This document shows positions 741-27,904 of a DNA stretch of 64,000 nt, one piece after another. Positions within the stretch are counted from its first letter, which is position 1. The number at the start of each line of letters is the position of its first letter. Both the position numbers and the translations under genes were made by a program. Origin of the DNA: Terriglobia bacterium (GTDB lineage Bacteria > Acidobacteriota > Terriglobia > Acidiferrales > UBA7541); NCBI GenBank assembly GCA_023512135.1, contig JAIMAG010000007.1, positions 62,001 through 126,000 of the forward strand, in the 5' to 3' direction. Below the pieces are notes generated by a model that saw only the letters and a list, made by a program, of their open reading frames with translations, searched no databases and was not told the DNA's origin.

Positions 741-1508
741 TCAGGTTTCCATTGCCACGTGCGCCACGCGGCCCACAAGCAAATCCGCGTAGGTCTGGCC
801 TTCCTCGACGGGCAGGATTTCCACCGGATAGTCAGGATTGTGCGGGCGCAGGATGAGAAAGTGCTCGTCCGGCCCGGCGCGCCCAACCGCAGCTCCCGGC
901 GCACTGCTGCGACGAATCAGTTCGACGTACTTCACCGTGCAGCCCTCGCCTTTCCGCACCACATACATGTTGCGATCGTTTTTCCGGTAAGGGCGCAGGC
1001 TGTTGTAGTGCCGGTCGATCAGCAGCGTGGAGCCGGGATTCAGCCGTGGCCACATGCTCATGCCCTCGCGGGCATCCACTTTGATAAGCACGAAGCGGGT
1101 CCAGAACCGGCGCGGCGGAGCCGCCAGATCAGCCCGGATGCGATTCAAGAAGGCACGGCGGAACTTGAGCAGCTCCTTCACCTGCTCGTTGACAATGATT
1201 TCGCTGCCCGCGGCAATGGTGCCATCCACCAGGGGCACCTCGGCATAGTCGGTGTCCTCCCCGGCCGGCACGGCAGCAAAGCGCATCAGTTGGTGCGGGT
1301 CGAGCAGGTCGTAGAGGCTGAGCCCAATGGCCTTCAGCATCCGATCCAGCGCCGAGAGTTTCAAGCCTCGCTTGCGGTTCAAAAAATTCGAAATGTGCGC
1401 CTGCGTGAAGCCCGTCCGGCGGGCCAGTTCCATGCCGGTCAGCTCGCCGGATTCGATCCGCTTGCGCAGCTCGCGACGCAAACTTTCCTGCAGGGCCACG
1501 AAACTCAT
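741..1508 (-). CDS. CI/LexA-type phage repressor (XRE HTH + S24 peptidase)
   Basis: A 255-aa protein from the ATG at 1508 (18 further codons upstream are in frame but carry no initiation signal). Residues about 14-70 form an XRE helix-turn-helix (MELARRTGFTQAHISNFLNR). Ala100-Gly101 in DGTIAAGSE matches the LexA/CI self-cleavage site. Ser151 (EGMSMWP) and Lys193 (CTVKYVE) match the S24 Ser/Lys dyad. The family represses lytic promoters and cleaves itself when RecA is activated by DNA damage, so SOS induction is expected but not shown. It diverges from the rightward phage genes across an AT-rich 125-base region holding promoters for both directions. Confidence 0.88.
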   Translation of the reverse strand: MSFVALQESLRRELRKRIESGELTGMELARRTGFTQAHISNFLNRKRGLKLSALDRMLKAIGLSLYDLLDPHQLMRFAAVPAGEDTDYAEVPLVDGTIAAGSEIIVNEQVKELLKFRRAFLNRIRADLAAPPRRFWTRFVLIKVDAREGMSMWPRLNPGSTLLIDRHYNSLRPYRKNDRNMYVVRKGEGCTVKYVELIRRSSAPGAAVGRAGPDEHFLILRPHNPDYPVEILPVEEGQTYADLLVGRVAHVAMET

Positions 1509-1592
1509 CAAAACCAGAATATAACGCGCAGCTATGAAAGGCAACGTGCAAATGCCGAACAAGCAAGCACTTATAGCAAAAAGAAATTATAC

Positions 1593-3294: not shown

Positions 3295-4875
3295 ATGCCA
3301 GAACTGCAATCCATTCTGCAACGGCTGGCCACGGAACCGACGAGGCTGGTGCGGCACCCGCTCGTCGAGCGCTTTTCCCACCTGGAGGGACTCTGGCCAC
3401 TGCTGGATGCCCTGGTCCCCGTGTTCTGCCAGATTCGCGACCGCCAGGGCCGACTGGTACCGCTGGTGCAAAACGCGGTGCAGCGGGACTACGCGCAGCG
3501 CCGCACGGCGCGGAACCTGATTCTCAAAGCGCGTCAGGTGGGCATGACCACCTACATCGCGGCACGATTCTTCCTGCGCACGATTTCAACGCCCGGAACG
3601 GTCACGCTGCAGGTAGCCCACTCGCTGGAATCCGCCGAACAGATTTTCCGGATTGTCCGGCGGTTCTTCGACACGCTGGATGACGACGTGCGCCGCGCCC
3701 TGAAGCCCGTCCGAACCAACGCACGCGAACTGGCTTTTGCTGGCACCGACAGCCGCTACCTGGTGGACACGGCCGGCAACCGCCACGCCGGGCGCGGGCT
3801 GACGATTCACTGCCTGCACGCTTCGGAAGTGGCGCAATGGCCAGGGGATGCCGGAGAAACTCTGGCGGGACTGCTCGGGGCAGTGGCGCCGGGCGGATGG
3901 GTAGACCTGGAGTCTACGCCCCGCGGTTCCGGAAGCCTCTTTCACCGCCTGTGGACCGATGCAGTATCGTGGCCGGGTTACACCCGCCACTTCTTCCCCT
4001 GGTGGCTGGAGCCCGCCTACACGCTGGCTCCTGCGCCCGGCGAATCGCTCGAACCGCTGAGCGAGGAGGAACGCCTCCTCGTCGAACGCCACCGGCTCAC
4101 CCCCGGGCAGATTCTCTATCGTCGCTATCTTCGAACTACGCTCGGCGTGCTGGCGCGGCAGGAGTTTGCCGAAACCGACGTGGATTGCTTCCTTTCCGCC
4201 GGCCGGCCCGTGTTCGACCTGGCGGCCATCGAAGCGCGGCTGCGTCGGCTGCCGGAACCGGTCGAACGCCACGCCAACGGCGCCGAACTCATCTGGTTTC
4301 CGCCGCAGCCGGGGCGCGATTACGTGCTGGGTGCCGACGTGGCCGAGGGCACCGAACACGGCGATTATTCCGCCGCGGTAGTTCTGGATGCTGCCACCGG
4401 ACTGCAGTGCGCGGAAATTTTTGCTCGCTGGCCCCTGCGCCAGTTTATCGAATCGCTCGATCGCCTGGGCCGTCGCTACAACTTTGCCCTGATGGCCATC
4501 GAACGGAACAACCACGGGCACGCTGTGCTTTATGCCCTGCGACACCAGTTCCACTACCCGCGAATCTATCACCATCCAGAACCCGGCGTGAACCCGACCG
4601 CAACAAAGGCCGGCTGGCCCATGAACCTGCAAACGAAGCCGCAGGTGGTCGGCGCGCTGCACCTGGCCCTGGAGCAGACCCCGGAGATTATCTGTTCGGC
4701 TCGGCTGCTCGAGCAGTGCCGGAGCTTCGTGTACCGGGAAGACGGTGAGATGGGTGCGCTGGCCGGGATGCACGATGACCTGGTCACGGCCATGGGGATT
4801 GCCCTCGCCGTGCGTGCGCGCACGGCCGCCGCCACGCTGACCAGTGCTGCGGTGCACGCCCCGGCGCCGTGGTGA
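3295..4875 (+). CDS. terminase large subunit
   Basis: A 526-aa DNA-packaging motor and nuclease. The ATPase domain shows a Walker A variant LKARQVGMTT (from Leu77) as in T4 gp17-type terminases, a Walker B with HASE (Glu178 as catalytic carboxylate), and motif III ESTPRG (207-212). The RNase H-like nuclease domain begins near residue 340 with YVLGADVAEG (Asp348 as first metal ligand) and ends with MHDDLVTA (Asp494/Asp495). Full length is normal for the family. It would dock on the portal encoded 2 kb downstream; the two are usually adjacent, and here a kinase/DUF3037 pair sits between them. Confidence 0.93.
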   Translation: MPELQSILQRLATEPTRLVRHPLVERFSHLEGLWPLLDALVPVFCQIRDRQGRLVPLVQNAVQRDYAQRRTARNLILKARQVGMTTYIAARFFLRTISTPGTVTLQVAHSLESAEQIFRIVRRFFDTLDDDVRRALKPVRTNARELAFAGTDSRYLVDTAGNRHAGRGLTIHCLHASEVAQWPGDAGETLAGLLGAVAPGGWVDLESTPRGSGSLFHRLWTDAVSWPGYTRHFFPWWLEPAYTLAPAPGESLEPLSEEERLLVERHRLTPGQILYRRYLRTTLGVLARQEFAETDVDCFLSAGRPVFDLAAIEARLRRLPEPVERHANGAELIWFPPQPGRDYVLGADVAEGTEHGDYSAAVVLDAATGLQCAEIFARWPLRQFIESLDRLGRRYNFALMAIERNNHGHAVLYALRHQFHYPRIYHHPEPGVNPTATKAGWPMNLQTKPQVVGALHLALEQTPEIICSARLLEQCRSFVYREDGEMGALAGMHDDLVTAMGIALAVRARTAAATLTSAAVHAPAPW

Positions 4876-4985: not shown

Positions 4986-5780
4986 ATGCCGCAGGCAGTG
5001 GAACACATCCGGCGGATGCGCGGCGGCGCACAGGCGCATCTGATGCGCTGTTCGGATGGCGGATATTACGTCGTCAAATTTCAGAACAATCCGCAGCACC
5101 CGCGCATTCTGGTGAACGAATTGCTTGGGACCCGGCTGGCCGCACGACTGGGACTGCGCACGCCACAGGCAGCGGTCGTGCATGTCGAGCAGCGACTGAT
5201 TGACCTGACGAGCGAGCTGGTGATGCAAATCGGCACAGAACGAATTCCCTGTCGGGCCGGGTTTCAGTTCGGCTCACGGTACCCTGGCGATCCCGCGCAG
5301 ATTGTGGTGCACGACTTCTTACCCGAAGCACAACTGCTGGCTGTGGAGAACCTGGATGACTTCTGTGGCGTTCTGGTGTTCGATAAGTGGACCTGCAACA
5401 CGAACGGTCGGCAGGCGATCTTCTATCGGGAAGACGGTCAACCGCAATATGCTGCGATGATGATCGACCAAGGCTTCTGCTTCAACGCCGGCGAGTGGAA
5501 TTTTCCGGATGCGCCGCTGCGCGGCCTCTATCCACGACAGCGTGTCTACGAGCGGGTGCGCGGGATGGAAACCTTCGAGACGTGGCTGGCGCGCCTAGAG
5601 CAAATCGACGAGCGCGTGCTCGATGCCATCAGCAAGGAGATTCCTCCGGAATGGTATGACGGCGAGCAGGATGCGCTCTACGACCTGCTCGAACAGCTTC
5701 TGCGCCGGCGCAAACGGGTTCCGGATCTCATCCTGGAGGCGAAAAATTCTTCCCGGCAACCATTTCCCAATTGGACGTGA
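4986..5780 (+). CDS. HipA-like kinase (HipA_2-type family)
   Basis: A 264-aa protein with HipA-superfamily kinase motifs: Lys31 in YYVVKFQNN (ATP binding), Glu45 in VNELLGTRLA, Asp133 and Asn138 in VFDKWTCNTN (catalytic loop), and Asp161 in MIDQGFCF (DFG-like metal site). All key residues are present, so activity is plausible. It is shorter than E. coli HipA (about 440 aa) and lacks its N-terminal subdomain, as in stand-alone HipA-like kinases. It is followed three bases later by a DUF3037 gene, a frequent partner. The pair sits between terminase and portal and is not a virion part by family. The substrate is unknown; toxin, defence or lysogeny roles are inference. Confidence 0.8.
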   Translation: MPQAVEHIRRMRGGAQAHLMRCSDGGYYVVKFQNNPQHPRILVNELLGTRLAARLGLRTPQAAVVHVEQRLIDLTSELVMQIGTERIPCRAGFQFGSRYPGDPAQIVVHDFLPEAQLLAVENLDDFCGVLVFDKWTCNTNGRQAIFYREDGQPQYAAMMIDQGFCFNAGEWNFPDAPLRGLYPRQRVYERVRGMETFETWLARLEQIDERVLDAISKEIPPEWYDGEQDALYDLLEQLLRRRKRVPDLILEAKNSSRQPFPNWT

Positions 5781-5783
5781 ACC

Positions 5784-6593
5784 ATGAGCGAAACTCCACT
5801 GCAAAGCTGTAGCTATCGCATTCTGCGCTACACGCCGAACTTGATCCGCGACGAATGGGTGAATATCGGCGTGCTGCTGCACGACCCGGTTCGAAACGAA
5901 TTGCGACACCGGTTGCTCGAAGGAACAGCCGAGCTCCGCCGGGTCCGACGGCTGCATCCGCAAGCGGACCTGGAACTGTTGCGGGCCCTCGCCGGGGAGC
6001 TGGAGCTGCAGATCGAAGCCGCGAACGGCAATCCCGCCGCATTTCTGCAGCGGCTGGAGGAAACACTCTCGAATGCGCTGCAGCTCAGCCCGCCGAGGGG
6101 GGTTCTGACCGAAGATGCCGCTGCAGAGCTGGAGCGGCTCTACCGCGATCATGTAGAGGCTCCGCGCTTCCGTCGCGCGGCCGCGCCCGAGCGGCCCCAG
6201 ACGCGCACCGAAGTGCGCCTCCAGGCCCGGCATGTATTTCGCCGCGCCGGCATTCTGCACCGGCTGACCACGAACGTGTCCGTCGAAGAATACACGGAAC
6301 CCGGTGACCCCTTCCGAATGGACTTCGCCTATCGGCGCGACGGCATCCAGGGCTACCTGCACAGTCTGCTGCTCACGGGCGACGCCGGGCGCGCCAAAGA
6401 GCTCGCCTACACGGCAGAACGCATACGGGCGAAACGGGCCGCCGAGTTCTTTGCCATCACTGAGACGGAGCCAGAAATCTCGAACCTGCGACATCAGTTC
6501 CTTCGCCGACTCCTGGCTGCACAGAACATTGGCATCGTCGCGGTCACGCAGCTCGAGCGTTTCGCCGAGCAGCTGCGGGCCGACCTGAACTAG
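5784..6593 (+). CDS. DUF3037 protein, partner of the HipA-like kinase
   Basis: A 269-aa protein opening with CSYRILRYTPNLIRDEWVN and IGVLLHD, the signature of DUF3037. The family is found beside HipA-like kinases in many bacteria; its biochemical role is not known, though a partner or antitoxin role has been an obvious guess. Residues 85-160 are helical and charged; the C-terminal half (EYTEPGDPFRMDFAYR to the end) looks like a second alpha/beta domain. No DNA-binding or transmembrane segment is evident. It is translated with the kinase and followed by an AT-rich stretch and a terminator, so the two genes form a closed unit. Confidence 0.78.
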   Translation: MSETPLQSCSYRILRYTPNLIRDEWVNIGVLLHDPVRNELRHRLLEGTAELRRVRRLHPQADLELLRALAGELELQIEAANGNPAAFLQRLEETLSNALQLSPPRGVLTEDAAAELERLYRDHVEAPRFRRAAAPERPQTRTEVRLQARHVFRRAGILHRLTTNVSVEEYTEPGDPFRMDFAYRRDGIQGYLHSLLLTGDAGRAKELAYTAERIRAKRAAEFFAITETEPEISNLRHQFLRRLLAAQNIGIVAVTQLERFAEQLRADLN

Positions 6594-6846
6594 CGGCGGA
6601 AATTCTGTCAAGAGGGCCGAAGCGTCGAAAAACAGGTAATTGTCTGAAACGAAAGAAGAAAAAATTTTCGCAAAACTGAATAATAACCTGTCCCGATCTG
6701 CTATAACATTCTCAGAAGCTGAAAAGAAACCGCCCCGGAGCCGCCGCTTCGGGGCTTTTGCGTTTGGGGCGGCTCTTTCCGCGCAACACGGGAGCCGCAC
6801 CGACAGTACCGGCAAGCACGCGAGCACATTTCTCGATCCCCAGAAT
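6594..6846. other. AT-rich gap between cargo pair and portal
   Basis: About 250 bases. The first 130 are clearly richer in A/T than the flanking phage genes and contain a TATAAC box (6701-6706) without a good -35. The rest holds an intrinsic terminator. A frame is open from a TTG at 6640 into the portal gene, but it lacks a ribosome site and runs through the terminator hairpin, so I treat it as non-coding. Confidence 0.55.
6732..6764 (+). terminator. intrinsic terminator closing the cargo pair
   Basis: 10-bp stem GCCCCGGAGC (6732-6741) / GCTTCGGGGC (6746-6755), with one G-T pair and a CGCC loop, followed by TTTTGCGTTT. It separates the kinase/DUF3037 pair from the portal gene; late transcripts must pass it or start after it. 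Confidence 0.75.
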
Positions 6847-8082
6847 ATGCGTACCCGGAACCACGAACATTGGCTGCGGAGGGCCTGGCGCCTGCTCGCC
6901 GGCTCTTCCGAACGGAAAACCATTGTCCTGCCCGCAGCGGCACCGGCATCACGCCGGCAGCCGCTGCCCAAGCCGACACCGGCGAATCTCCGCCGCTTTT
7001 CGGAAACTCCCGTTGCACGCAAGGCGATCAACACGATCAAAGACCGCATCGCGGGAATGAAGTGGCGCGTGCAGGCAAAGCCAGGAACCGCACGCCGCGA
7101 CGCCGAGCAGCGCATCCGCGTCCTGGCTGCAAATCTGCAGGCGCCCAACCCGGAAGACAGTTTTCGCTCCCTTGTCGAGCAGGTGATCGAAGACCTGCTC
7201 GTGAGCGGCGACGGAGCGATCGAAGTGCAGCTCACGCCGAATCCGGAGCGTCCGCTGCTGCTCTGGCCCGTGGACGCAACCACGATCCGCATCTACGCGG
7301 GCTGGTCGGGCGATGCCGAAGAGCCACGCTACGCGCAGGTGACCCCCTGGGGACACCGCGTGGACCTGCGGGACGACGAACTGGTCTATATCCGCCTGAA
7401 CCCGCGCAGCTGCACGCCGTTCGGCCTGGGCCGGCTGGAAGTTGCTTTCGAAACCATCAGTTGGCTGCTCGGCGCCCAAGAATACGCTGCGCGGCTGGCT
7501 TCGAATACCGTGGTGCAGTTCGCGCTCTGGCTGCAGGAGATGCCGCCGGCCAGCTATGACAAGGTGATCTCCTGGTGGCAGAACGAAATCGAGGGCACCG
7601 GTCGCGTCCCCATCATCGCCAACCTGCCGGCCAAGCCGGAAGTGCTGCGTTTCGGGGAAGGTTCAGACCGCGACCTGCGGCTGGAATGGCAGCGCTTTCT
7701 GATGCGCATCATCGCCGATGCCTTCGACCTGCCGCCGCTGCTGCTCGGGCTCGAGCAGGATGTAAACCGCGCGACCGCCAGCGAGCTGGTCGACGAAGCG
7801 TTCCACACCGCGGTGGTGCCCACCGCGCGGCTGCTGGCCGAGCACCTGACGCGCGACGTGATTGTCCGCAGGCTCGGCTGGGAAGATCTGGAATTCGTTT
7901 TCGACGACCTGGAAATTTTCGACCAGCGCGCCCAGGCGGAAATTGACGAAATCCTGCTGCGCGCCGACGTGCTGCTCCCGGACGAAGTTCGCCGGCGACG
8001 GAATCTGCCCGCCCTGGCCGACGGGTGGGGCGCGCTGCCCTACACGCAGCGCCAGGCTCGGGTTCAGAACTCCTCCCGCTGA
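6847..8082 (+). CDS. phage portal protein
   Basis: A 411-aa protein with the HK97/SPP1-type portal pattern: a basic N-terminus, the segment VARKAINTIKDRIAGMKW, a core with LVEQVIEDLLVSGDGAIEV and the later FDLPPLLLGLEQDVNRATA, VDEAFHTAVVPTARLLAEHL and RAQAEIDEILLRADVLLPDE. Twelve copies would form the DNA channel at one capsid vertex and bind the terminase. I chose the ATG at 6847 because upstream in-frame sequence crosses a terminator hairpin. It is followed by the protease/scaffold gene after 23 bases. Confidence 0.9.
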   Translation: MRTRNHEHWLRRAWRLLAGSSERKTIVLPAAAPASRRQPLPKPTPANLRRFSETPVARKAINTIKDRIAGMKWRVQAKPGTARRDAEQRIRVLAANLQAPNPEDSFRSLVEQVIEDLLVSGDGAIEVQLTPNPERPLLLWPVDATTIRIYAGWSGDAEEPRYAQVTPWGHRVDLRDDELVYIRLNPRSCTPFGLGRLEVAFETISWLLGAQEYAARLASNTVVQFALWLQEMPPASYDKVISWWQNEIEGTGRVPIIANLPAKPEVLRFGEGSDRDLRLEWQRFLMRIIADAFDLPPLLLGLEQDVNRATASELVDEAFHTAVVPTARLLAEHLTRDVIVRRLGWEDLEFVFDDLEIFDQRAQAEIDEILLRADVLLPDEVRRRRNLPALADGWGALPYTQRQARVQNSSR

Positions 8083-8105: not shown

Positions 8106-9089
8106 ATGCGCAAACGCACCCGACTCGCCGGACTGCGCCTAGAAGCGATGGCACTCGACATCCCGGAATTTCCCGATCATCCGAATCGCGTACCGTTCTC
8201 CGGGGTGCTGACACGGGTGGATCGCCCCAGCGATCGCGCGCCCAACGGAGCGCAGGGCCACCGCGTGCTGCTGCCGCGTGCAGTGGCTGAGCGAGCACTG
8301 CCCAGTTTGCTGGGCATGGCCGTGGACTATGCGCCCGGCCTGCGCGGCCACGACGTGCAACGGAAGATCGGCGTCATCACCCGCGCGGAAATTGTCGAAG
8401 ATCGCCTGGAAGTTTCCGGGCACCTGTTCGGCAAGGATTTTCCCGAGGTCATTGCGGAACTGCGGGCCCGGCGCGCGCAGCTCGGCATGTCGTACGAGGT
8501 GACCGACGTGCGCGTGGCCGATCGCACGGCTCCCATCTGGGTGCTGGAAAGGGTCGTCTTCACCGGCGCAGCCATCCTGGACCGCACGGCTGCCGCCTAC
8601 CAGTCCACCTCGCTGGCAGCCCACGCTGCCAGCCGGAAACAAGGAGAGGTCATGGAAGAACGCGTGCTGAAAGCACTGGAGAATCTGGCCGAGTCGAATC
8701 AGGCCCTGCTGGCAGAGTTCCACCGCCTGCACGGTGTGCTCGCAGCCCTGACGGAAAGTCCCCGGCACAACGTGACCCTGGCCGGCAGTGCGGGCAGCTC
8801 CGACTCGTTGGAAACGCGCGTGGACGAGCTGGCGCGACAGACCGAAGAGCTGCGCCGGCAGAACGAAGCGCTGCGGGCACAGGCCGAACGTTTTGCCGCA
8901 CAGTCGGCGCGCAAAACGATCCCGCCGCAGGTGCTGACGCTGCTCGCCAAGAGCGGAGTGGCCACCGACCTGGTCGGGCACTCCGGCAAAATTGAAGTGG
9001 CCGTCCTGGACCGGGCGCTGGAAGGCCTGCCCACCGAACAGCGCATCGCCATCAAGTCACAGCTAGCGCGAGCCGGTGCGCTGGACTAA
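8106..9089 (+). CDS. prohead maturation protease fused to scaffold
   Basis: A 327-aa protein. Residues 1-175 are a phage prohead protease with GHLFGKDFPEVIAEL (His106) and LGMSYEVTD (Ser129), the expected His/Ser nucleophile arrangement. Residues 183-327 are a helical scaffold: a coiled coil with ETRVDELARQTEELRRQNE. The start has GGAGAGGCC before the ATG. The full-length protein cleaves scaffold and capsid arms during head maturation. A second in-frame start at 8652 has its own ribosome site, so scaffold alone should also be made, as in lambda C/Nu3. Confidence 0.85.
   Translation: MRKRTRLAGLRLEAMALDIPEFPDHPNRVPFSGVLTRVDRPSDRAPNGAQGHRVLLPRAVAERALPSLLGMAVDYAPGLRGHDVQRKIGVITRAEIVEDRLEVSGHLFGKDFPEVIAELRARRAQLGMSYEVTDVRVADRTAPIWVLERVVFTGAAILDRTAAAYQSTSLAAHAASRKQGEVMEERVLKALENLAESNQALLAEFHRLHGVLAALTESPRHNVTLAGSAGSSDSLETRVDELARQTEELRRQNEALRAQAERFAAQSARKTIPPQVLTLLAKSGVATDLVGHSGKIEVAVLDRALEGLPTEQRIAIKSQLARAGALD
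8652..9089 (+). CDS. nested scaffold protein (internal start)
   Basis: Internal in-frame ATG at 8652, codon 183 of the protease gene, preceded by AAGGAG at 8641-8646 with 5-base spacing, a better ribosome site than that of the full gene. It would yield a 145-aa scaffold beginning MEERVLKALENLAE. Scaffold is needed in many more copies than protease, which explains the arrangement. The same trick is documented for lambda Nu3; here it is inferred from sequence. Confidence 0.7.
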   Translation: MEERVLKALENLAESNQALLAEFHRLHGVLAALTESPRHNVTLAGSAGSSDSLETRVDELARQTEELRRQNEALRAQAERFAAQSARKTIPPQVLTLLAKSGVATDLVGHSGKIEVAVLDRALEGLPTEQRIAIKSQLARAGALD

Positions 9090-9159
9090 CCCGCCGATTG
9101 CCCGCCGGCGATCCGCAACCCATCCGGCGAGTTTGAAAATTTCCATCGCGAGGAGAATC

Positions 9160-10122
9160 ATGAGCCGAGGATATTTCGTGGACATCGCTGCCGCGGCCGA
9201 TTTTCTCGGTCCGGGCGCAATCGAAGTGAACCGCTACCAGAGCGAAATCACTGACCTGGTCCGCCGCCGGGGTGCGTTCGGTCAGCGGATTCGGCAGGTG
9301 CCGGCGACGGGCCATCCGTCGCGGTTTTTCGAGCAGACGGCGATCAATGCCTCTGCGGCGTTTGTGGACCCGAGGGCGATCAACCCCGCCGCCGGCGCGC
9401 CCACCCGCGTGGAACGCACTGTGCCCCTGAAAGCCCTGGTCGCGCAGATCAACTTCTCGCTGTTTGACCTGGAAGTCACGCGGCAGCAACAGCAGTTTGC
9501 GTTCCTGGAAGCGAAAGACCTGGCCGACACCATCGACGGACTGCTGCGCAAGCATGACCAGGCCCTGTGGAACGGCACCGACACCAGCTTCACCACACCG
9601 ACCACGCTGGAATACTACGGCGCGCTGCGGCAGCTCACCGATGCCGGCTCCGAGGTGCAAATCACGGATCCGTCGGCTTCGATTGTGGACCACATCAAGG
9701 CCCAGGTGACGACCATGGTGGCGCGGTCGGACTTCGAAGTGCGCCCGACCGCCATCTACGCCAACCCCCAGACGCTCGACCTGATCGACCGGGAACTGAA
9801 GGCCATCCACAACGTGATCCTCAGCACCCGCACGGTCGAAGGCGGCATCACGGTCAAGGAAATCTCCACGCAGGCGGGCACGCTGCCGCTGATTCCCGAC
9901 TGGACGATCCTGGTAGAAGACGCGGGAACCAACAGAATTCACGACGTGGTCATCGTCAGCGAAGAGCTGATCGAGTATCACTGGCTCACGGATGTGAACC
10001 CGCGCGTGTTCCAGCTCGGACTGCCGAGCTCGCTCTCCACCCAGATGGTGGTGGTGAAGTTCGGCGCGATTGTCGTCAAGGGTGCCGGCTACGCCCACAA
10101 GCGTCTGCGCTTTGTCCGGTAA
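9160..10122 (+). CDS. major capsid protein (HK97-fold)
   Basis: A 320-aa protein right after the scaffold, start supported by GAGGAGAATC before the ATG at 9160. It shows features of a capsid subunit without delta-domain: an N-arm (GAIEVNRYQSEITDLVRRRG), an extended-loop region, a spine helix (AKDLADTIDGLLRKHDQALW), and a C-terminal strand-rich region ending VVKGAGYAHKRL. The segment PTAIYANPQTLDLIDREL followed by GGITVKEISTQAG is typical of the A-domain. The protease encoded upstream would trim it. A 14-base perfect palindrome follows the stop. Confidence 0.85.
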   Translation: MSRGYFVDIAAAADFLGPGAIEVNRYQSEITDLVRRRGAFGQRIRQVPATGHPSRFFEQTAINASAAFVDPRAINPAAGAPTRVERTVPLKALVAQINFSLFDLEVTRQQQQFAFLEAKDLADTIDGLLRKHDQALWNGTDTSFTTPTTLEYYGALRQLTDAGSEVQITDPSASIVDHIKAQVTTMVARSDFEVRPTAIYANPQTLDLIDRELKAIHNVILSTRTVEGGITVKEISTQAGTLPLIPDWTILVEDAGTNRIHDVVIVSEELIEYHWLTDVNPRVFQLGLPSSLSTQMVVVKFGAIVVKGAGYAHKRLRFVR

Positions 10123-10202: not shown

Positions 10203-10829
10203 ATGGCTGGCAATTTCTACCTGACCACAGCAGAGCTGGTGGCCTTCGGACTGGAAGATTCCACTGACCCGGCCCTGATCCGGGTAGCCAGCGACCTGGT
10301 GGATGCCTTCTGCCAGCGACCTTCGCTGCTGGTTGCGCAGTACACGGAACGCAACCGCCTGCCCAAACAGCTACCGGTCACGCGGGTCACCTTCACGCCG
10401 CTGGCGATTCCGGAAGGAGCTACGTCCCCGTTTTCGCTGGTGCGTGTCCGGCAAGGCATTCCGCGTGGCCCGGAAACAGAGACCCTGGCCGGCCTGCTTG
10501 CACCGTTCGGCGGACCGCCCGCTTGGGTGGAACTGGACCACAACCGCATTGACTTCCGCGCCGAAACCGGCGAAGTCTGGCTGCCCGCCAGCTTGTTCGG
10601 TGACCGCTACAGCGAAGTCGAATTGACCTACACGGCGGGTTACACCAGCGTGCCGGAAGCCGTCAAGCTGGCCTGCGCGCAGATTATCCGGAACATCGAA
10701 TCCCACCCGGCCGCAAACGTCAAAACAGCCCTGCTCGATCGGCTGCAACTGGAATACTTCGCCGGCTCGCTGCTCGACGACGACGCGCGGCGACTGCTGG
10801 CCCCGTTTGTCGCTCTGCGCCTGAACTGA
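10203..10829 (+). CDS. head-tail adaptor (gp6-like)
   Basis: A 208-aa protein in the position of HK97 gp6/lambda gpW-type adaptors, directly after the capsid gene. It has the usual layout: an N-terminal helix pair (TTAELVAFGLEDSTDPALIRV and ASDLVDAFCQRPSLL), a central beta insertion, the motif EVELTYTAGYTSVPEAVKLA and a C-terminal helix region (ALLDRLQLEYFAGSLLDDD). GYxxVPexVKxA is common in these proteins. It would form a ring under the portal. Two bases separate it from the next gene. Confidence 0.7.
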   Translation: MAGNFYLTTAELVAFGLEDSTDPALIRVASDLVDAFCQRPSLLVAQYTERNRLPKQLPVTRVTFTPLAIPEGATSPFSLVRVRQGIPRGPETETLAGLLAPFGGPPAWVELDHNRIDFRAETGEVWLPASLFGDRYSEVELTYTAGYTSVPEAVKLACAQIIRNIESHPAANVKTALLDRLQLEYFAGSLLDDDARRLLAPFVALRLN

Positions 10830-12756: not shown

Positions 12757-13758
12757 ATGCCCATTTCGAAATCGCTTGTCCAGCCGTTCCGCAAGCCGAT
12801 GATTCTGGTTGGCTCCGGATTCCGCGGATTCTTTGCCCCGTTTCGGCAGGGCGCAGACCCGCAGCCGACCCTGTTTGACCCCGCACGCCAGGGACGTTTC
12901 GATACCCACAATCCGCCGGCAGGCTGGTTTGATCTCGGCTGGATTGACCAGTTCCGCCGTTCCCCGAACGGTCGCATCGGACAGATCCGTTCCGGCTACC
13001 GGGGCGCCGTGCGGGCGCAGTATCGCGGCGAGATCGGCAGCAGCATCGAGTTCGAGTTTCGCGAGTGGGGCAAGCTGCAGATGGCGCTGGCCAGCGGCAC
13101 CACGCACTTCAACATCCTGAAAGCGGCGGCCGGCACGCCCCAGCAGCCGCTGGGCGGTTCTCCGGCACCGGCAGTCGCGCTGGGCGCCGGCTCGACGGCC
13201 AGCACCCTGGTGCTGGCGACCGGTGGCGGCGCGCAGTTTTCGGTCGGCGAGTTTGTCGCTGTGGACGTGGACTACACCGGACAGTCCGGATTCGTCGGCT
13301 CCGGTGTGCAGGCTTCGTTCGTGCCGGCTGCCTCGGTGAGCGACGTGGACTTCATCCGCCGGGTGACCTTCAACGTCGGCGTCATCCGTGCCATCGCCGG
13401 CGATACGCTCGAACTCGAACAGCCGCTGCTCGGCGGCGTGCCCCCGGCCGGCGCCAAGGTGCAGGCCGTGACTGGCTTCGCCAGCCGGGAGGGCAGCTCG
13501 TTTATCCAGTCCTGGTCCGCGGTGTTTGTTGTGGATACCGCCGACGGCGCACAGCTCTACTATTACTACCCGCAGCTTTCCATCGCGAGTGAACGGGAAG
13601 ACACCACGTTCGAAGTGGAAAACGTCGGCACCGCCGACGTGCGCGGCTATTCCCTGCGCGCGGAATTCAACGCGCTGGCATTCGAAGACCCGGTGGACGG
13701 GGAAACCGTGGTCAGCTATCGCGGCTTCTTCCCGGCGCCGGGTTCGCAGGCCTACTGA
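12757..13758 (+). CDS. major tail tube protein
   Basis: A 333-aa beta-rich protein with start backed by AAGGAGTGTTCG. Position between tail terminator and tail chaperone, low charge and many Gly/Val/Thr strands (for example ASTLVLATGGGAQFSVGEFVAV) fit a tail tube subunit with an added domain in residues 130-240. YYYYPQLSI and VSYRGFF are near the end. Hexamer rings would stack along the tape measure. It is larger than minimal tube proteins, so an Ig-like insertion is likely. Confidence 0.75.
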   Translation: MPISKSLVQPFRKPMILVGSGFRGFFAPFRQGADPQPTLFDPARQGRFDTHNPPAGWFDLGWIDQFRRSPNGRIGQIRSGYRGAVRAQYRGEIGSSIEFEFREWGKLQMALASGTTHFNILKAAAGTPQQPLGGSPAPAVALGAGSTASTLVLATGGGAQFSVGEFVAVDVDYTGQSGFVGSGVQASFVPAASVSDVDFIRRVTFNVGVIRAIAGDTLELEQPLLGGVPPAGAKVQAVTGFASREGSSFIQSWSAVFVVDTADGAQLYYYYPQLSIASEREDTTFEVENVGTADVRGYSLRAEFNALAFEDPVDGETVVSYRGFFPAPGSQAY

Positions 13759-13795: not shown

Positions 13796-14476
13796 GTGGC
13801 GAAGACCACAACGGCAGACCGCGAGCTCGATCCTCGACTGCAGGCCCGGCTCGATGCGGAACTCGCACGGCTGCGCGCGCAGTCGCAGAAGGCGGTGGAA
13901 GAATTCAAGAGGAATTTCCCGCCGCCGACCGAAGAGCAGATTGAACGCCTGCTCTACCCGGAGCTTTCCGAGTTCGTCTTCGAACTGGGCGGCCGGCGGT
14001 TCGTTCTGCGCGAGCTGCCTGCGCTCACAGAAAAGAAATTCCTGCGCCTGGTGGAGCAAAAACTGCCCGCCCTGGTTGCGGAGATTCTGCGGTTCGATGA
14101 GCGGCTGGGGGAAGACCCTGCTCGAGCCTTCACGCAGTTGCTCACCCGCGCCGAAACAGCCCTGGACCTGGTCGCCGAAGCCTGCGCCCTGGTGCTGGAC
14201 CCCGGCGGCGAGCAGGGCATCAGTCGGGAATTCGTGCAGGCACATGCCTCCACGGCGCGCCAGCTGCGCATTTTGCAGGCACAGCTGCTGCTGAACGCGG
14301 GCCGGGATTTTTTATCGCGACTCTTCCCCGCCTGGATACCGCCGGAACCCCAGCCCACGGCAGAACACCGCGCAGCGGCGGACAACGCTGCCGCTACCCC
14401 CGGCTGGCCGCCGCAGTCAGTTGGGTCGAATTCTTCCGCGAAAGCCCCGGCGCCATCACCCGCAGATTCACCCTAG
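13796..14476 (+). CDS. tail assembly chaperone, short form (gpG-like)
   Basis: A 226-aa protein from GTG 13796 (AGGCGAGGA upstream). It lies between tail tube and tape measure like lambda gpG. Residues 30-90 are charged helices; the core contains FVFELGGRRFVLRELPALTE, a pattern seen in tail chaperones. At codons 171-173 (14308-14314) the sequence T TTT TTA is read as ga[T TTT TTA] in this frame, an ideal -1 slippery heptamer. The last 53 residues after the slip site are Pro/Ala-rich and look like filler compared with the alternative frame, which continues to 14610. Confidence 0.75.
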   Translation: MAKTTTADRELDPRLQARLDAELARLRAQSQKAVEEFKRNFPPPTEEQIERLLYPELSEFVFELGGRRFVLRELPALTEKKFLRLVEQKLPALVAEILRFDERLGEDPARAFTQLLTRAETALDLVAEACALVLDPGGEQGISREFVQAHASTARQLRILQAQLLLNAGRDFLSRLFPAWIPPEPQPTAEHRAAADNAAATPGWPPQSVGSNSSAKAPAPSPADSP

Positions 14477-14610
14477 GACAGCTCGCCCTGATCGCCTGGC
14501 AACTCGAAGAGCAAACCTGGCACAGTCAAGTGCAGGCCGAAGCGATGGATCTTCGCCAGCTCAGCGGCCGGGAACTAGCGCTGCACCTGCGCCGGATTGG
14601 CGCCTGGTGA
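13796..14610 (+). CDS. tail assembly chaperone, -1 frameshift product (gpGT-like)
   Basis: Slippage by -1 at T TTT TTA (14308-14314) lets ribosomes continue in the overlapping frame from 14314 to the TGA at 14608-14610 with no stop. The added part ends in a well-formed helical domain (SWVEFFRESPGAITRRF, LGQLALIAWQLEEQTW, LSGRELALHLRRIGAW). Total length is about 271 residues. In lambda and most siphophages a fixed ratio of short to shifted product is needed to load the tube onto the tape measure. The span is given as start and end; the reading frame changes at 14314. Confidence 0.72.
14308..14314 (+). promoter_or_regulatory. -1 ribosomal slippery heptamer
   Basis: T TTT TTA in the correct phase of the upstream frame (codons GAT TTT TTA), the same heptamer used by HIV-1. 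It lies 163 bases before the zero-frame stop. A GC-rich inverted repeat CCGCCG (14339-14344) / CGGCGG (14376-14381) lies downstream but starts 24 bases away, further than typical stimulators. Confidence 0.7.
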
Positions 14611-14634: not shown

Positions 14635-15897
14635 ATGCCCGATACGGTTGCTGACGTGCTGGTGCGGCTCGGCGTCGATACCAGCCGTCTGCGCGAAGGA
14701 TTCCGCGACGCACGCAACCAGACGGCGCGCTTCGCGTCGGATCTGGCCAGCTTGCTTTCGACCTCGCTCCGCGGGGGTCCGATCGAAATCATCGGCGCAG
14801 CGGCACGCACCGCCGGGCGAGCGATTCCCGGCCCGTTCGGAGCCATCCTGGGCGGGGTGGGCAGCATTTTTTCCGCAATCGGCAGATTCTTCTCCGGACT
14901 GTTCAAGCGCAGCGCGCGCAACGCGGCGCGGGAGATCCGCCGCACGTTCCAGGAAATTGTCACTGCCTTCCACAGCGGATCGGCCACGCTGGGCGCGACC
15001 CTTCAACGCCTGGAACGGGAGCGCGAGCGAGCGATTCGCCGGCTCTCGGGGAAAAAAGGCGGCCGGGAAGAACTGAATCGGCTGCTGCCCGAGTTCGACC
15101 GTGCACTCGCGGAGCTCCGCAGCCGGCAGCAGGCCATCTTCGAACAGTTCGAATCGTCCCTGCAATTGCTCCGCGTGGGACGCGCGTTCCGCGACGTCGC
15201 GGCCAGCGTGCAGGAGCTCCTTCAGCAGTACCGCACCTATGTGGACGCCGGCGGCGATCTGGTTCGTGCGAACGAATTCCTTTCCCGTTCGCTCGAAGAG
15301 CTGCGCGCCGACGCGAGCCTGGAACTGGCCGAAGGCGAGCAGCAGGCGATCGAAAACGCGCTGCGCCTGAATCAGCTCCTGCTGGAACGGGAAACGATCC
15401 TGGCCGAAGCCGCCGAACAGGAACAGCGGATCCGCACCCGGGGCGTGCTGGAACGCCAGCGCACGGTGGCCCAGGAAAAAGCCCTGGAGCTGGAAGCGGT
15501 CCGCCGACGGCGCGACGAACGGCTGGCCGAGCTCGATCGCGAAATTCAGCATCTGCAGCTCCGCGTGGACATCGAAGCAAAAGTCTTCGAGCTGTCGCGC
15601 GACCGCGTAGCCCTGGAAACGCGGTTGCTGGAGTTGAAAGCACAGGAATTGGAACGCGAGGCGGCGCGTTTGTCGGCGCTGAAGCAGGTGGTCGCGGGCA
15701 TCGTGCCGGGCATCTCCGGACTGACCACCCTGACGCCCGGCCTGCAGCAAATTCTGAACCTCGGCGGCATCTCCATCTTCGTCGGGCAGGATGCCACACC
15801 GGCGCAAGCGCGACGGCTCGGTGCAGAGGCCATCGAAGGCATGCTCCGCGCCCTGCTGAATGAACGCGCACGCCTGGGATTGCACTTGGCGCTCTGA
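14635..15897 (+). CDS. tape measure protein (short)
   Basis: A 420-aa, mostly helical protein. A hydrophobic segment at about residues 47-90 (GAILGGVGSIFSAIGRFFSG) is typical of the membrane-active part of tape measures. Residues 100-350 are long charged helices rich in Arg, Glu, Leu and Ala. It follows the chaperone and precedes the tail tip gene. At about 1.5 angstrom per residue the tail would be near 60 nm, short for a siphovirus. The TGA overlaps the next ATG at 15897. Confidence 0.85.
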   Translation: MPDTVADVLVRLGVDTSRLREGFRDARNQTARFASDLASLLSTSLRGGPIEIIGAAARTAGRAIPGPFGAILGGVGSIFSAIGRFFSGLFKRSARNAAREIRRTFQEIVTAFHSGSATLGATLQRLERERERAIRRLSGKKGGREELNRLLPEFDRALAELRSRQQAIFEQFESSLQLLRVGRAFRDVAASVQELLQQYRTYVDAGGDLVRANEFLSRSLEELRADASLELAEGEQQAIENALRLNQLLLERETILAEAAEQEQRIRTRGVLERQRTVAQEKALELEAVRRRRDERLAELDREIQHLQLRVDIEAKVFELSRDRVALETRLLELKAQELEREAARLSALKQVVAGIVPGISGLTTLTPGLQQILNLGGISIFVGQDATPAQARRLGAEAIEGMLRALLNERARLGLHLAL

Positions 15898-18800
15898 TGG
15901 CGATTCGGCTGCTGATCGACAACGCCGATCACCACGGGCTCGTGGACTACACGCGCTACCTGGCCGCACCGGACCGCACCCCGGCCGTCCTCCGCGACGA
16001 AATGAACCTGCCGGCGCGCCTCGACTTCGTGCTGATGCCTGCAGACCTGGAATTCCGCGCACCTTCGCGCTCGGCCTATGTGCGTCTGGAAGGTCTGGCG
16101 GAATCGCTGCCTCCGGGAGGGCCACGGGTGCCCGGCCCGCTGTTCACCGGTTTTGTCACCCACGAGCCGGAGGTCGAATTCCTGGGCGTAGCCAACGGAC
16201 AGCCCGTCTACGGCTTCCACTACCAGGCCACCAGCGAAGAATATCTGTTGAATGTAAAGCGCCTCGGGCCGCTTCCGCCCTTTCTGAACCAGACCGCGGG
16301 CCAGATCCTGCGATTTCTGGTCGAACACCTGCTGCCCGGACGATTCGATACCACAGCAGTCGCCGAGGGCGCTCGGATTCCGGTCTTCCGCGTCGACCCG
16401 GAAGCAGCGTGGAGCGACGTGGCCCGGGAGCTGGCCGAGCGCTCGGGCTACTATTACCGGGTGCTCGACCGGAAAGTGATTTTCCAGCCGATCGGCGACG
16501 CAGGTGCGGACGTCGTCGTGGACGAACGCGACCCGCGCTTTCGTCCGGACGCGCTGGAAATCCAGCCTGTCGGCAACGCCATCCAGAATGACGTGACCGT
16601 TTTCGGCGCCGTCGAGCCACAGGCGTTCGTGCAGGAGCATTTCGTCGGCGACGGTTTCACCTCGAAGTTTCTGCTCTCCGCTCCGGTGTTCGGAGCCGAG
16701 TCGGCCCGACTGCTCGCCGACGATTTCACCGGCGACAGTCTGGATCCGACCCGCTGGCAGGAAACCGACCCGGGCAATCACATCCAGCTCTTCGAAGGGC
16801 GACTGAACGTCACCGGAGGTAGCGGGACACTGGGCGAAACCACTCTGCTCGCCCGGCAGATGGTCGAATTGGCCGGGGAGCTCGAAATCATTCACGGGGA
16901 ATTCGAGTTCGTTCGTCCCTCGCAGGGCATCCTCGGCGGACTGTACGACAGCGCGGCGCTGGCCGCGGCGAATTGCCTGGTAGGGTTCGATGTGGCTCCG
17001 ATGCCCGACGCCACGCGCCTGCGTGCCCGGGTCCGCGGCGTGGTGCAACCACTGGAAGTGATCACCCAGGCAAACCATCACTACGTGCTGGTTACCCGCC
17101 TGAGTGCCGATCAGCCGTTCCGGGTGCAGCAATCGTTCGCCAGTTCCGATGGCACCCGCGGCGGCAGCGAACTGGCGGCCCGCGTACAGGTGACTCTGGA
17201 AGTACGCGATCTCGATCTGGCCGACCCGACCCTGCCGGCCGTGACCGTGCTGTACGCTGCTGCGCTGGACGATCTGCCTGCGGTGGCGCTCTACGCACCG
17301 ATCAATTCGGCCGATCTGCACTTGGCGGTCAACTTCCTGCAAATCGCGCGACCGGTTCAGGCACGACTGGTCACACAGAAGCCGGGCGAGCCGCCGCGCA
17401 CCCGTCGGCTGGGTTTCGGCATCGCCGGACAGGATGCCACGATTACCTCCGACCCCAATCAGAACCAGTGGGCCCTGGAGTTTTATCCGGACACGATTCC
17501 AGAGACCGGAGAGCGCATCACGCTCTACTACCGGGAAGCCGGGCGTGCGCGCGCACGCGTCCGGGATGCAGCCAGTATTGCCCGGGAAGCAGCGCTCGCT
17601 GGCGACGACGGCGTGCGCGCCGCCGTGCTGCGGGATCTCACACCGATGCCGCGCACATCAGCCGAGGCCGAAGCCGCCGCGCTTGCCTACCTGAGCGATC
17701 ACACCGCCCCGCGCTACGAGGGCCGGTACACGACCTGGAGCGACTTCACTGAACAGTTCCCGCGCAGCGGGCGACTGGTCGAAGTCCGGAACGAGTCACG
17801 CTACCCGACGTTCCGCGCGCTGGTGCGGAAGGTGAGCAGCGAATTCCGTGAACTGGTCCATGAACGGATTCTGCACACGCTGGAATTCGGTCAGCCTTCG
17901 CGAATCGAACAGATGCTGCGTCGTCTGGTGCCGGCCCCGGAACTGCTGCAGCCGGAAGAGCCGGTCGCACTGCCAGCCGTGGACGTAGCCGAGCTGGAGG
18001 GCCGGTTCGTGCCCGAATCGGCCGGAGTCACGCTGGCTGGCGTCGCCCCGACACACTATCTGATCGACATGGGCGCCCCGCCACCGGCCCAAGGCATTTT
18101 CGAAGTGCGGCGCAGCGATCAGGGTTGGAGTTCCCAAACGAGCGACGGCAGTACGCAGAACCTGCTCGCGACCGCATCGACACAAACGTTCGTCGTGCCC
18201 CGCAGCGCGCGCCGGCACGTGTTTTTCATTCGTCCGGTACTGCCGGACGGAACCACCAGCCGCTATTCCAGTATTGTGGGCATCCACTATCCGCTGGTGC
18301 CCCCGGCACCGGAAGCGGTCGTCGTCGAGTTCGGGCTCGATGCCCGCCGCAAACCGATCATCACCATCCGCGTGACCATCGGGGAAGAAAATCTGCAGGA
18401 CGTAGATCGAGTGGAACTGCGCGACGGAGACAACACCACGGTGCTGGCGCGCTGGACCTTCGGCCAGCTTCAGTTGGAGGACGACGCGTATCACGCAACT
18501 CTCGTCCTGGACAACAGCACGGCCCTGCTGCGAGAGAAAATCGTTTTCGCCTACACACAGAACACGCTCGGGGAATACTCGGCTCCCACCAGCGGAACCG
18601 GCGCACAGCCGGAACCGGCCAAACCCCAATTGACCCCGGGAAACTCCGTGGGGCAGATCGTCGAGATTCGCCTGGACCGCAGCCCTGCCGAAATCCAGCA
18701 GACGCAAATCCAGGTCGCCGATGCGGCCACCGGCTTCGACGAACCCGAACAGGACGTGACGTTCGATGGCCAGCCGGAAAAGTTCAGCTTCGTTGCACCG

Positions 18801-19685
18801 CGGTCCGGGGACTGGATGTTCCGCGCGCGGCGTCGGGATGCGCTGGGCTGGACACCGTGGTCGAACGAGCCACAGGGCCAGATCCCCGCACAGCTTCTGG
18901 TGTTTTCGGTGCGATTCTTCCGCGCACGCGAGCTGGACCCTTCCATCGGGGCAGCCGTCAACGCACAGAACCTGCTCCCGAACAGCGATTTTTTCCTGCC
19001 CGGGATCAGCGGACAGGAAGGCACCGCTGCGCCCCGCTACTACGGACTGGTCAACGCTGCCCCGGATGGCAGCGAAATGAGCTACCTGCCGGCAACCAAC
19101 GAAGTCGAGTGGCGAGCCGGCGTCAGCCTTGCGCAGGCGAACCCGGGCCTGCAGTCACGACTGAGCAACCTGGGTCGGCTGCTCAATCCGGGCGAGCCCC
19201 TGACGCTTTCCGCTGCGCTGCGACACACCGGCACAGCTGTTTTCCCGCATCCGGTGCGGTACGCGCTGCGGTCGTCGGCGGATCCGACGTTTGCACTCAG
19301 CGGCGAAATTGCGGCCGGGACGATCACGGCTGCCTACCAGTGGTACTCCGTGACGTTTCTGCTGCCGGCCGATCGTCCGGTGCCCGCGGACCTCTCCGTG
19401 GAGATCACCGTGGGAATCGAAGCCGGCCAGTCACTGGCCTCGGCACTCCGGTGTGACAAACTGGTGCTGAATCGCGGGCATCGCCCGGCGGCGTTCAGCT
19501 TTGCTCCGTGGGACATCCTGGCACTTCCCTGGAACAGCAGCGCTCAAGCCTATGATCTGCCCGAGACCATAGTCGCATCCACGCCACGCAGCGCCGACGC
19601 CGGCGGCGCCGGCAGATTGATGGGCACGGGCACCGAAGATCTCGACCCCGACTTCACTGAGCGATATCACCGGCTGGTCGTATAA
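15897..19685 (+). CDS. tail tip / baseplate hub and host-recognition protein
   Basis: A 1262-aa protein. Residues 1-260 are hub-like (FLNQTAGQILRFLVEHLLPG, VARELAERSGYYYRVLDRKV, NAIQNDVTVFG). About 275-480 look like an inserted concanavalin-type domain (DDFTGDSLDPTRWQE, FEGRLNVTGG). The hub fold resumes at LTPMPRTSAEAEAAALAYL. From residue 690 on there are fibronectin III-like repeats, and near 1020 a carbohydrate-binding-like domain beginning NLLPNSDFFLPG. This multi-domain plan suits a central tail fiber/tip that binds cell-surface polysaccharide. It lacks a signal peptide, unlike the three fiber-like genes that follow. Confidence 0.75.
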   Translation: MAIRLLIDNADHHGLVDYTRYLAAPDRTPAVLRDEMNLPARLDFVLMPADLEFRAPSRSAYVRLEGLAESLPPGGPRVPGPLFTGFVTHEPEVEFLGVANGQPVYGFHYQATSEEYLLNVKRLGPLPPFLNQTAGQILRFLVEHLLPGRFDTTAVAEGARIPVFRVDPEAAWSDVARELAERSGYYYRVLDRKVIFQPIGDAGADVVVDERDPRFRPDALEIQPVGNAIQNDVTVFGAVEPQAFVQEHFVGDGFTSKFLLSAPVFGAESARLLADDFTGDSLDPTRWQETDPGNHIQLFEGRLNVTGGSGTLGETTLLARQMVELAGELEIIHGEFEFVRPSQGILGGLYDSAALAAANCLVGFDVAPMPDATRLRARVRGVVQPLEVITQANHHYVLVTRLSADQPFRVQQSFASSDGTRGGSELAARVQVTLEVRDLDLADPTLPAVTVLYAAALDDLPAVALYAPINSADLHLAVNFLQIARPVQARLVTQKPGEPPRTRRLGFGIAGQDATITSDPNQNQWALEFYPDTIPETGERITLYYREAGRARARVRDAASIAREAALAGDDGVRAAVLRDLTPMPRTSAEAEAAALAYLSDHTAPRYEGRYTTWSDFTEQFPRSGRLVEVRNESRYPTFRALVRKVSSEFRELVHERILHTLEFGQPSRIEQMLRRLVPAPELLQPEEPVALPAVDVAELEGRFVPESAGVTLAGVAPTHYLIDMGAPPPAQGIFEVRRSDQGWSSQTSDGSTQNLLATASTQTFVVPRSARRHVFFIRPVLPDGTTSRYSSIVGIHYPLVPPAPEAVVVEFGLDARRKPIITIRVTIGEENLQDVDRVELRDGDNTTVLARWTFGQLQLEDDAYHATLVLDNSTALLREKIVFAYTQNTLGEYSAPTSGTGAQPEPAKPQLTPGNSVGQIVEIRLDRSPAEIQQTQIQVADAATGFDEPEQDVTFDGQPEKFSFVAPRSGDWMFRARRRDALGWTPWSNEPQGQIPAQLLVFSVRFFRARELDPSIGAAVNAQNLLPNSDFFLPGISGQEGTAAPRYYGLVNAAPDGSEMSYLPATNEVEWRAGVSLAQANPGLQSRLSNLGRLLNPGEPLTLSAALRHTGTAVFPHPVRYALRSSADPTFALSGEIAAGTITAAYQWYSVTFLLPADRPVPADLSVEITVGIEAGQSLASALRCDKLVLNRGHRPAAFSFAPWDILALPWNSSAQAYDLPETIVASTPRSADAGGAGRLMGTGTEDLDPDFTERYHRLVV

Positions 19686-26581: not shown

Positions 26582-27886
26582 CTACAGGATGTTTTCCTGC
26601 CAGTTCTCGAGTATCGATTTCACCTTGCCGATGAACTGGTGTGCAATGGCTCCGTCCACGATGCGGTGGTCGTAGCTGAGGGTCAGGTAGACCATCGAGC
26701 GGATGGCGATGGCATCGTGGATGACCACGGGGCGCTTCTGGATGGCTCCCACGCCCAGGATGGCTGCGTTCGGCTGGTTGATGATGGGCAGGCCCATCAG
26801 CCCGCCGAACACTCCCGGATTGGTGATCGAAAAAGTGCTCTCCTGCACTTCTTCCGGTTTCAGTTTCTTGGTGCGCGCGCGCTCGGCCAGGTCGTTGATG
26901 GCGCGCTGCAAGCCGAGGAAATTCTTCTCCTCGGCATGCTTGACCACCGGAACAATCAGCCCCCAGTCGAGGGCGACGGCAATGCCAATGTTGATCTCCC
27001 GGTGAAGCACCAGGTTGGTGCCGTCCAGCGAGGCATTCAACGCGGGAAAGGCGCGCAAGCCTTCCACGCAGGCTCGCACAAAGAAGGGCATGAAGGTCAG
27101 TTTCGTTTCAAAACGCCGCTCGAATTCCGCCTTGGCCTGATTGCGCACTTCGACCACGCGCGACATATCCACTTCGTCGATGGAATAGACATGGGGCGAG
27201 GTGCGTTTCGAGAGCACCATGTGTTCGGCGATACGCTGGCGCATCACGCTGAGCGGCTGCACCTCGTAGCGACCGAAATAGATGCGCTCGCGCGGCACGG
27301 CGGCCTCCAACCGGAGGGGGGCCGGCGCTGCTTCCGGCTGGGCTGGCGCCGCGGACGGAGCCGGAGCGGTGGCCCGCGCTTCGATGGCGGCCAGAATGTC
27401 GCGCTTGCTGATTCTTCCGCCGGCGCCGGTGCCCCGGATGGTCGTCAGGTCGATGTTGTGTTCGCGGGCGAGCCGGCGCACCAGCGGGCTGCTCCGAATC
27501 CGGCGACCGTCTTCTCCCGACACCGGCTGGGGCGCGGCCGTCGACGCGTGCGCAGCCGGAGCCGGTTCGGGACGGGCTTCGGTCGGCGCGGGCATCTCTG
27601 CAGGTTTTTCTTCGGCCTGGGCCGGTTCGGCGGCCGAGGTTGTCGTGCCGTCCGGGTCGATCAGGGCCACCACGGTCTTGATCGGCACGGTTTCGCCTTC
27701 GCGGACTTTGATCTCTTTCAGGATGCCGCTGGCCGGCGCGGGAATTTCCGCGTCCACTTTGTCGGTGGAGATTTCAAACAGCGGCTCGTCGCGCTCGACG
27801 CGCTGGCCGGGTTTTTTCAGCCACTTGGTGATCGTGCCTTCGAATATGCTTTCGCCCATCTGGGGCATGATGACATCCACAGGCAT
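26582..27886 (-). CDS. pdhC: 2-oxoacid dehydrogenase E2, dihydrolipoamide acyltransferase
   Basis: A 434-aa protein. Residues 1-78 are one lipoyl domain (lipoylated Lys43 in EISTDKVDAE), then a Pro/Ala/Glu-rich linker, a subunit-binding domain (VRRLAREHNIDLTTIRGTG) and the acyltransferase core with His407/Asp411 in SYDHRIVDG. It moves the acyl group from the E1 thiamine site to CoA. It is last in the lipB-E1alpha-E1beta-E2 operon; no E3 gene is adjacent. Pyruvate or branched-chain oxoacid as substrate cannot be decided from sequence alone; the two-gene E1 fits both, so the pdh symbols are provisional. Confidence 0.92.
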   Translation of the reverse strand: MPVDVIMPQMGESIFEGTITKWLKKPGQRVERDEPLFEISTDKVDAEIPAPASGILKEIKVREGETVPIKTVVALIDPDGTTTSAAEPAQAEEKPAEMPAPTEARPEPAPAAHASTAAPQPVSGEDGRRIRSSPLVRRLAREHNIDLTTIRGTGAGGRISKRDILAAIEARATAPAPSAAPAQPEAAPAPLRLEAAVPRERIYFGRYEVQPLSVMRQRIAEHMVLSKRTSPHVYSIDEVDMSRVVEVRNQAKAEFERRFETKLTFMPFFVRACVEGLRAFPALNASLDGTNLVLHREINIGIAVALDWGLIVPVVKHAEEKNFLGLQRAINDLAERARTKKLKPEEVQESTFSITNPGVFGGLMGLPIINQPNAAILGVGAIQKRPVVIHDAIAIRSMVYLTLSYDHRIVDGAIAHQFIGKVKSILENWQENIL

Positions 27887-27904
27887 GGCGCGCTCCTTCC
27901 GCCA

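Follow-up and report, generated by a model that had tools for sequence, protein, structure and literature searches.

In phage lambda, the tail assembly chaperones gpG and gpGT are produced in a ratio of about 30:1, with G binding the tape measure and T binding the tail-tube protein (PMC5009743). A gene with a comparable arrangement was analyzed here. As far as the available text of that source goes, it shares with lambda gpG/gpGT the location between the tail tube and tape measure genes, a predicted -1 frameshift close to the end of the first gene, an N-terminal part that is common to the short and the long product (predicted here from sequence), and a -1 domain without a start of its own (PMC5009743). 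The gene lies in a 64,000-nucleotide stretch of DNA of a Terriglobia bacterium, called the window below, which is part of contig C49 of a 2.83 Mb genome. Some differences from lambda were found as well: no sequence similarity could be detected, the zero-frame tail is longer, and the slippery site is U_UUU_UUA/C, while that of lambda is G_GGA_AAG.

The surrounding gene cluster can be compared with gene transfer agents (GTAs) such as RcGTA (Rhodogtaviriformidae), BaGTA and BhGTA, which, in the available parts of the sources, likewise combine phage-like genes for packaging, head and tail at a single chromosomal locus with a short tape measure and apparently vertical inheritance (PMC9662315, PMC11841831). 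Unlike the GTAs, the element has no known particles or DNA transfer, and no relation to them was seen in the family searches made here. It also carries HipA-like and DUF3037 genes, and its version in another family of the class (f11) has neither tape measure nor chaperone. Among Acidobacteria, Eichorst et al. (2018) described the prophage clusters 140 and 153, with related prophages in several Acidobacteria (PMC5900883). Like the element studied here, these are related phage clusters found in several Acidobacteria, one of them together with soil metagenome phages; they are, however, described as prophages, and the accessible part of that paper makes no mention of a frameshift or of a common chromosomal site (PMC5900883). 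Compared by description only, clusters 140 and 153 may include the present element. Among the literature listed on GTAs in Acidobacteria, on domesticated prophages and on Terriglobia, no report of such an element was found, and no word beginning with "Acidobacteri" occurs in two papers on GTAs.

Organization of the phage-derived cluster

The following genes were assigned in and beside the cluster.

741..1562, minus strand: HTH and S24-peptidase-like regulator adjoining the cluster (PF13560, E 6.5e-7; PF00717, E 1.9e-4)
3295..4875, plus strand: large terminase candidate (Terminase_6C, E 0.0075, under the cut-off; adjoins the HipA-like gene in f11)
4986..5780, plus strand: HipA-like kinase gene (PF20613, E 1.2e-14)
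5784..6593, plus strand: DUF3037 gene (PF11236, E 4.9e-19)
6640..8082, plus strand: portal protein (PF04860, E 4.9e-42)
9076..10122, plus strand: major capsid candidate (position and conservation; no family match)
10203..10829, plus strand: head-tail adaptor (phrog_442, E 4.5e-12)
12757..13758, plus strand: tail tube (major tail protein) candidate (position and conservation only; no family match of note)
14635..15897, plus strand: tape measure candidate, 420 aa (alignment with phage C-terminal parts; weak PHROG tape-measure match, E 0.038)
15897..19685, plus strand: baseplate/tail-tip (hub) candidate (position; conserved in the compared loci; no family match of note)
26582..30851, minus strand: flanking host genes for pyruvate dehydrogenase E2, E1 beta and E1 alpha and lipoyl ligase (Pfam)

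At the left end of the cluster, 2210-2809 gives a weak match to sigma-70 region 4, and this gene is kept in f11 together with the HTH/S24-like gene on the opposite strand. The latter is also conserved in genomes G002, G213, G308 and G195. Both are possible regulators of the cluster. Both families keep the HipA-like and DUF3037 genes between the terminase and portal genes, whereas a HipA-like gene was not found in any of the five phage records. The ORFs scanned between 1 and 26 kb, a part of those present and several of them without a family match, showed no replication or integration gene, and no tRNA that could serve as attachment site was found in the window.

The tail-tube candidate is 80% identical to its counterpart in G002, a genome of another genus, and 41-45% identical to those of uncultured phage contigs. 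Alignment places the tape measure candidate on the C-terminal part of its much longer counterparts in the phage contigs L031, L032, L040 and L041, which have at least 1331 aa (two of these run on past the end of the contig sequence compared). Such a short tape measure predicts a much shorter tail.

Slippery site and predicted products

The features of the chaperone gene are as follows.

13796..14476, plus strand: zero-frame tail assembly chaperone (G-like), 226 aa, GTG start (translation, homologues, fold search)
14308..14314, plus strand: slippery heptamer T_TTT_TTA (in phase here and at all eight loci compared)
14314..14610, plus strand: -1 frame extension (T-like), 98 aa (conserved domain at all eight loci; dN/dS below 1)

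An earlier sequence-only reading had proposed a programmed -1 frameshift in this gene, based on a heptamer in the phase of the upstream frame, an open -1 frame and a zero frame trailing into Pro/Ala filler. These observations could be reproduced. In the gene running from GTG at 13796 to TAG at 14474-14476, the heptamer is read as GAT_TTT_TTA, in the X_XXY_YYZ phase, and the -1 frame is open for 98 codons from 14314 to the stop at 14608-14610. The zero frame continues for 53 residues past the site and is rich in Pro, Ala and Ser. Since the first 173 aa of the chaperone are common to both products, the predicted fusion would comprise 173 + 98 = 271 aa.

Taken from a single sequence, a heptamer followed by an open -1 frame is poor evidence. 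Upstream of the site, too, the -1 frame has no stop for 71 codons, so its openness by itself is hardly informative. Of the window's ORFs of at least 100 aa, 9 of 105 on the plus strand and 1 of 116 on the minus strand contain an in-frame XXXYYYZ (Y being A or T, Z not G) together with a -1 frame open for at least 100 nt past the stop. TTTTTTA itself is found four times in the window against 1.43 expected from shuffles. The in-phase T_TTT_TTA was observed once against 0.006 expected for the 20 assumed genes, in which TTA accounts for 4 of 798 Leu codons. The frameshift call is nevertheless solid because of the comparative evidence and not because of the rarity of the site.

No stimulatory pseudoknot-free RNA structure was detected over the 80 nt that follow the site at the eight loci (z -1.27 to +2.15), and no well-spaced Shine-Dalgarno-like element was seen by eye.

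Conservation of the site across loci

The sequence-only reading had named the absence of the heptamer from close relatives as grounds for rejecting the frameshift. The comparison gave the opposite result: U_UUU_UU(A/C) was present in phase at all eight loci examined, that is, in the window, two more bacterial genomes and five uncultured phage contigs, with protein identity down to 26%. At each of these loci the site has the same phase and lies in the same protein motif, and it is followed by a homologous domain in the -1 frame, the -1 part being 90-149 codons long. In the five phage contigs, the gene at the chaperone position ends in ...RDF(F/L) and the next domain follows in the -1 frame. The fused products align over their full length, with invariant columns on either side of the junction.

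The chaperone gene was found in 3 of 101 related genomes, including the window's own; the other two are G001 (contig L003, 82% identity to the window) and G002 (L006, 68%). Loci L005, L008 and similar ones are repeats of G000-G002. The window, L003 and L006 share an identical stretch of 24 bases around the site, although dS before the slip is 0.5-1.5. The phage relatives, six uncultured contigs, were reached only via tail-tube alignments, and the chaperone as query gave nothing in the viral contig scans or in tblastn against named phages. One viral locus (L034) ends within the tail tube and was left out, so that five of the six were counted. In L033, homing endonuclease-like ORFs, recognized by eye, flank the chaperone gene (9204-10010 and 11132-11824), and a similar ORF, also recognized by eye, lies 3' of it in L041 (10320-10685).

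The -1 domain could instead be a separate gene, expressed from an internal start or, by coupling, from a non-standard start codon, with no fusion being made. Two chaperone genes have been annotated apart in some phages (PMC10885494, in its available part), and the five phage contigs have an ATG, GTG or TTG as early as 19-29 residues into the -1 part, so separate expression would be possible there. In the window, on the other hand, the first such codon comes only after 72 residues, beyond the conserved core, in agreement with the earlier statement that the -1 part lacks a start of its own. At all eight loci, the one Pro that never varies in the -1 part (P29 for the window) precedes the first ATG, GTG or TTG. 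A separate gene would also have no need for an in-phase heptamer at eight of eight loci, nor for a downstream frame that is -1 in every one of them, and this alternative is considered very unlikely.

The length of the zero frame past the site counts against the frameshift reading: it is 47-58 codons in the bacterial loci, longer than the 8-26 codons of the phage contigs and than the mean of 26 nt in annotated SEA-PHAGES cases (PMC10885494, in its available part).

RNA polymerase slippage on the six-T run, leading to a mixed mRNA population, would be compatible with the retention of this run at all eight loci. The site, however, matches the ribosomal X_XXY_YYZ rule exactly, and a run of six T is rather short for transcriptional slippage; slippage of this kind is therefore regarded as highly improbable.

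Selection and codon usage

For the three pairs of bacterial loci, dN/dS before the site was 0.13, 0.14 and 0.21. After the site, it was 0.25, 0.39 and 0.35 in the -1 frame and 1.8, 0.68 and 1.2 in the zero frame; all these values come from a simple counting method, with dS partly saturated and the two frames overlapping. Purifying selection thus acts on the -1 frame past the site and little or not at all on the zero frame; therefore the -1 frame is the one maintained as protein. Seven neighbouring genes compared between the window and L003 showed dN/dS of 0.07-0.12.

These results bear on the explanation that the heptamer is spurious, arising in a decaying old prophage or from a sequencing error. 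The looser slippery pattern is indeed shared by 9 of the 105 plus-strand ORFs, eight listed tail-tube rows carry an internal stop, and the tape measure of G002 has one frame interruption. Against this stand the conservation at eight of eight loci, the low dN/dS of the seven neighbours and the purifying selection on the -1 frame, which leave an origin by chance or decay scarcely credible.

Codon usage was also considered. In the other counted genes of the three bacterial loci, TTA makes up 3 of 546, 0 of 248 and 1 of 179 Leu codons, yet it is used at the site in all three. Taken one by one, the phage loci gave codon-usage products for the site of 0.65, 0.30, 0.26, 0.07 and 0.04. There, the site is obtainable more easily from codon usage alone, and singly it is not very surprising.

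Identity of the chaperone

The gene had been likened to lambda gpG/gpGT because of its position. This placement was retained, with the tail-tube candidate on the 5' side and the tape-measure candidate on the 3' side, both named mainly by position. Neither part of the chaperone gave a match of note in Pfam, PHROGs or NCBIfam, and the sequence search against PDB returned noise. The structure of the first part was predicted with a pLDDT of 79.9. In the viral fold search by Foldseek, its best match (E 6.4e-4) was an unnamed protein. Named chaperones followed at E of at least 0.019; the named viral fold matches comprise many tail assembly chaperones, including N15 GT and the "pre-tape measure frameshift protein G" of Xylella phage Sano. 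Foldseek against PDB, queried with the model of the first part, found nothing below E 0.5. The HK97 chaperone 2ob9 was among tied PDB rows (Z 5.0, rmsd 4.1, 84 aligned), and as one of a tied field of helical bundles (VIA rows) it is only suggestive. No known fold was matched by the model of the -1 domain (pLDDT 75.5). The predicted fold thus points weakly to phage tail assembly chaperones, and the gene probably represents a divergent, unannotated chaperone family.

Joint absence of chaperone and tape measure in family f11

Among 399 genomes of the class, the tail-tube model matched 84, of which 81 belong to f11, while the chaperone model matched three, all from the window's family. The f11 version of the element (L014-L030, L035-L039) has terminase, portal, capsid, tail tube and hub candidates and, at the cluster, neither tape measure nor chaperone. 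The hub gene was estimated to start 21-385 bases after the tail tube in 16 of 17 f11 loci, too short a distance to accommodate chaperone and tape measure; at the 17th locus the distance is 1069 bases. Thus either both genes are there or neither is, as would be expected of a chaperone that serves the tape measure. This pairing across loci supports the view that G/GT acts for the tape measure.

The tape-measure model gave short, weak matches in 9 of 150 f11 genomes. Their assignment to the cluster was rejected: in G161, G183, G308, G373, G415 and G435 the match lies on another contig or at least 50 kb from the capsid gene, and the remaining three (G210, G339, G428) are genomes listed without a capsid match.

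Proposed mechanism

Given the conservation at all eight loci, the position of the gene and the weak fold matches, the proposed programmed -1 frameshift in a tail assembly chaperone is upheld. Ribosomal -1 slippage of the lambda G/GT type, giving the 226-aa G-like protein and a minority 271-aa GT-like product with lambda-like roles, is considered highly probable. Most ribosomes would read GAU UUU UUA straight to 14476 and make the G-like protein. A minority, whose share we infer by analogy, would slip one base back at U_UUU_UUA, with tRNA-Phe and tRNA-Leu re-pairing with UUU UUU, and would terminate at 14610 to yield the fusion. As in lambda, the common N-terminal part might then coat the tape measure and the -1 domain recruit tail-tube subunits, after which both proteins would leave. 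The phage-derived operon appears to be vertically inherited, and the frameshift has probably been retained for the making of particles and not for infection.

Distribution and inheritance of the element

In G001, the element and its right side are collinear with the window, and the left contig end is reached; in G002, collinearity extends to both sides. The terminase-like gene of G002 is inverted and displaced, and its tape measure (L006) is split by the single frame interruption, which can be due to sequencing error or decay. The cluster, 741-26561, has the same chromosomal neighbours in two families (in f11: L035-L039, L056-L063). Kinship and the ADOP genes abundant in G337 and G308 point to Acidobacteriota as the phylum of the class; the ADOP model TIGR03434 passed its cut-off in these two of eight genomes and stayed below it in the window's own, and the record of L003, from a genus-mate, is labelled Bacillota.

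The f11 capsid candidate was found in 172 of 300 genomes (132 of the 208 good ones) and in 52 of 79 genera, nearly always as a single copy. The capsid alignment (A5) held six of the eight initial sequences, L038 being left out for an internal stop and L033 dropped by choice. The position of the f11 element was examined in 38 genomes chosen from the 81 with a tail-tube match, mostly those with few contigs. In 28 of them, as in the window, pyruvate dehydrogenase E2 is convergent and lies downstream, no more than 25 kb from the tail tube; of the ten misfits, two have the genes on other contigs, seven have them farther apart, and one has them near but in opposite orientation. In the tail-tube tree, each genus with at least two rows formed a single clade (four of four).

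From these results, the element looks to have been passed down vertically and not to be a recent prophage. Against this stands the patchy presence of the element: 128 of the 300 f11 genomes lack a capsid match, and only three genomes of the window's family carry the element. Repeated integration at one attachment site may be an alternative. The patchiness, the internal stops in tail-tube rows and the cluster copies that are split or moved speak against a uniform functional system.

Significance of the findings

The frameshift is a known device of tailed phages, here very probably used with a divergent chaperone family and persisting in an element that is seemingly passed from mother to daughter cell. 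The chromosomal setting is more interesting than the frameshift itself. A GTA-like role for the cluster is plausible. A wider reading, for and against which the evidence appears evenly balanced, is that the cluster is an ancient particle system of phage origin which the bacterial class inherits with its chromosome, acquired before two of the orders in the class split and kept by selection for particles. The window's family would then have a short-tailed form with G/GT, and the other family would have lost tape measure and chaperone together, while more than half of its genomes retain genes for terminase, portal, capsid, tail tube and hub; the system could be an independent GTA-like one or a new use of the capsid. 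If this reading is true, the two families would amount to a natural experiment on the function of G/GT. Provided that the wider cluster is functional, an unrecognised phage-derived particle system would be carried by many acidobacteria, often beside their pyruvate dehydrogenase genes.
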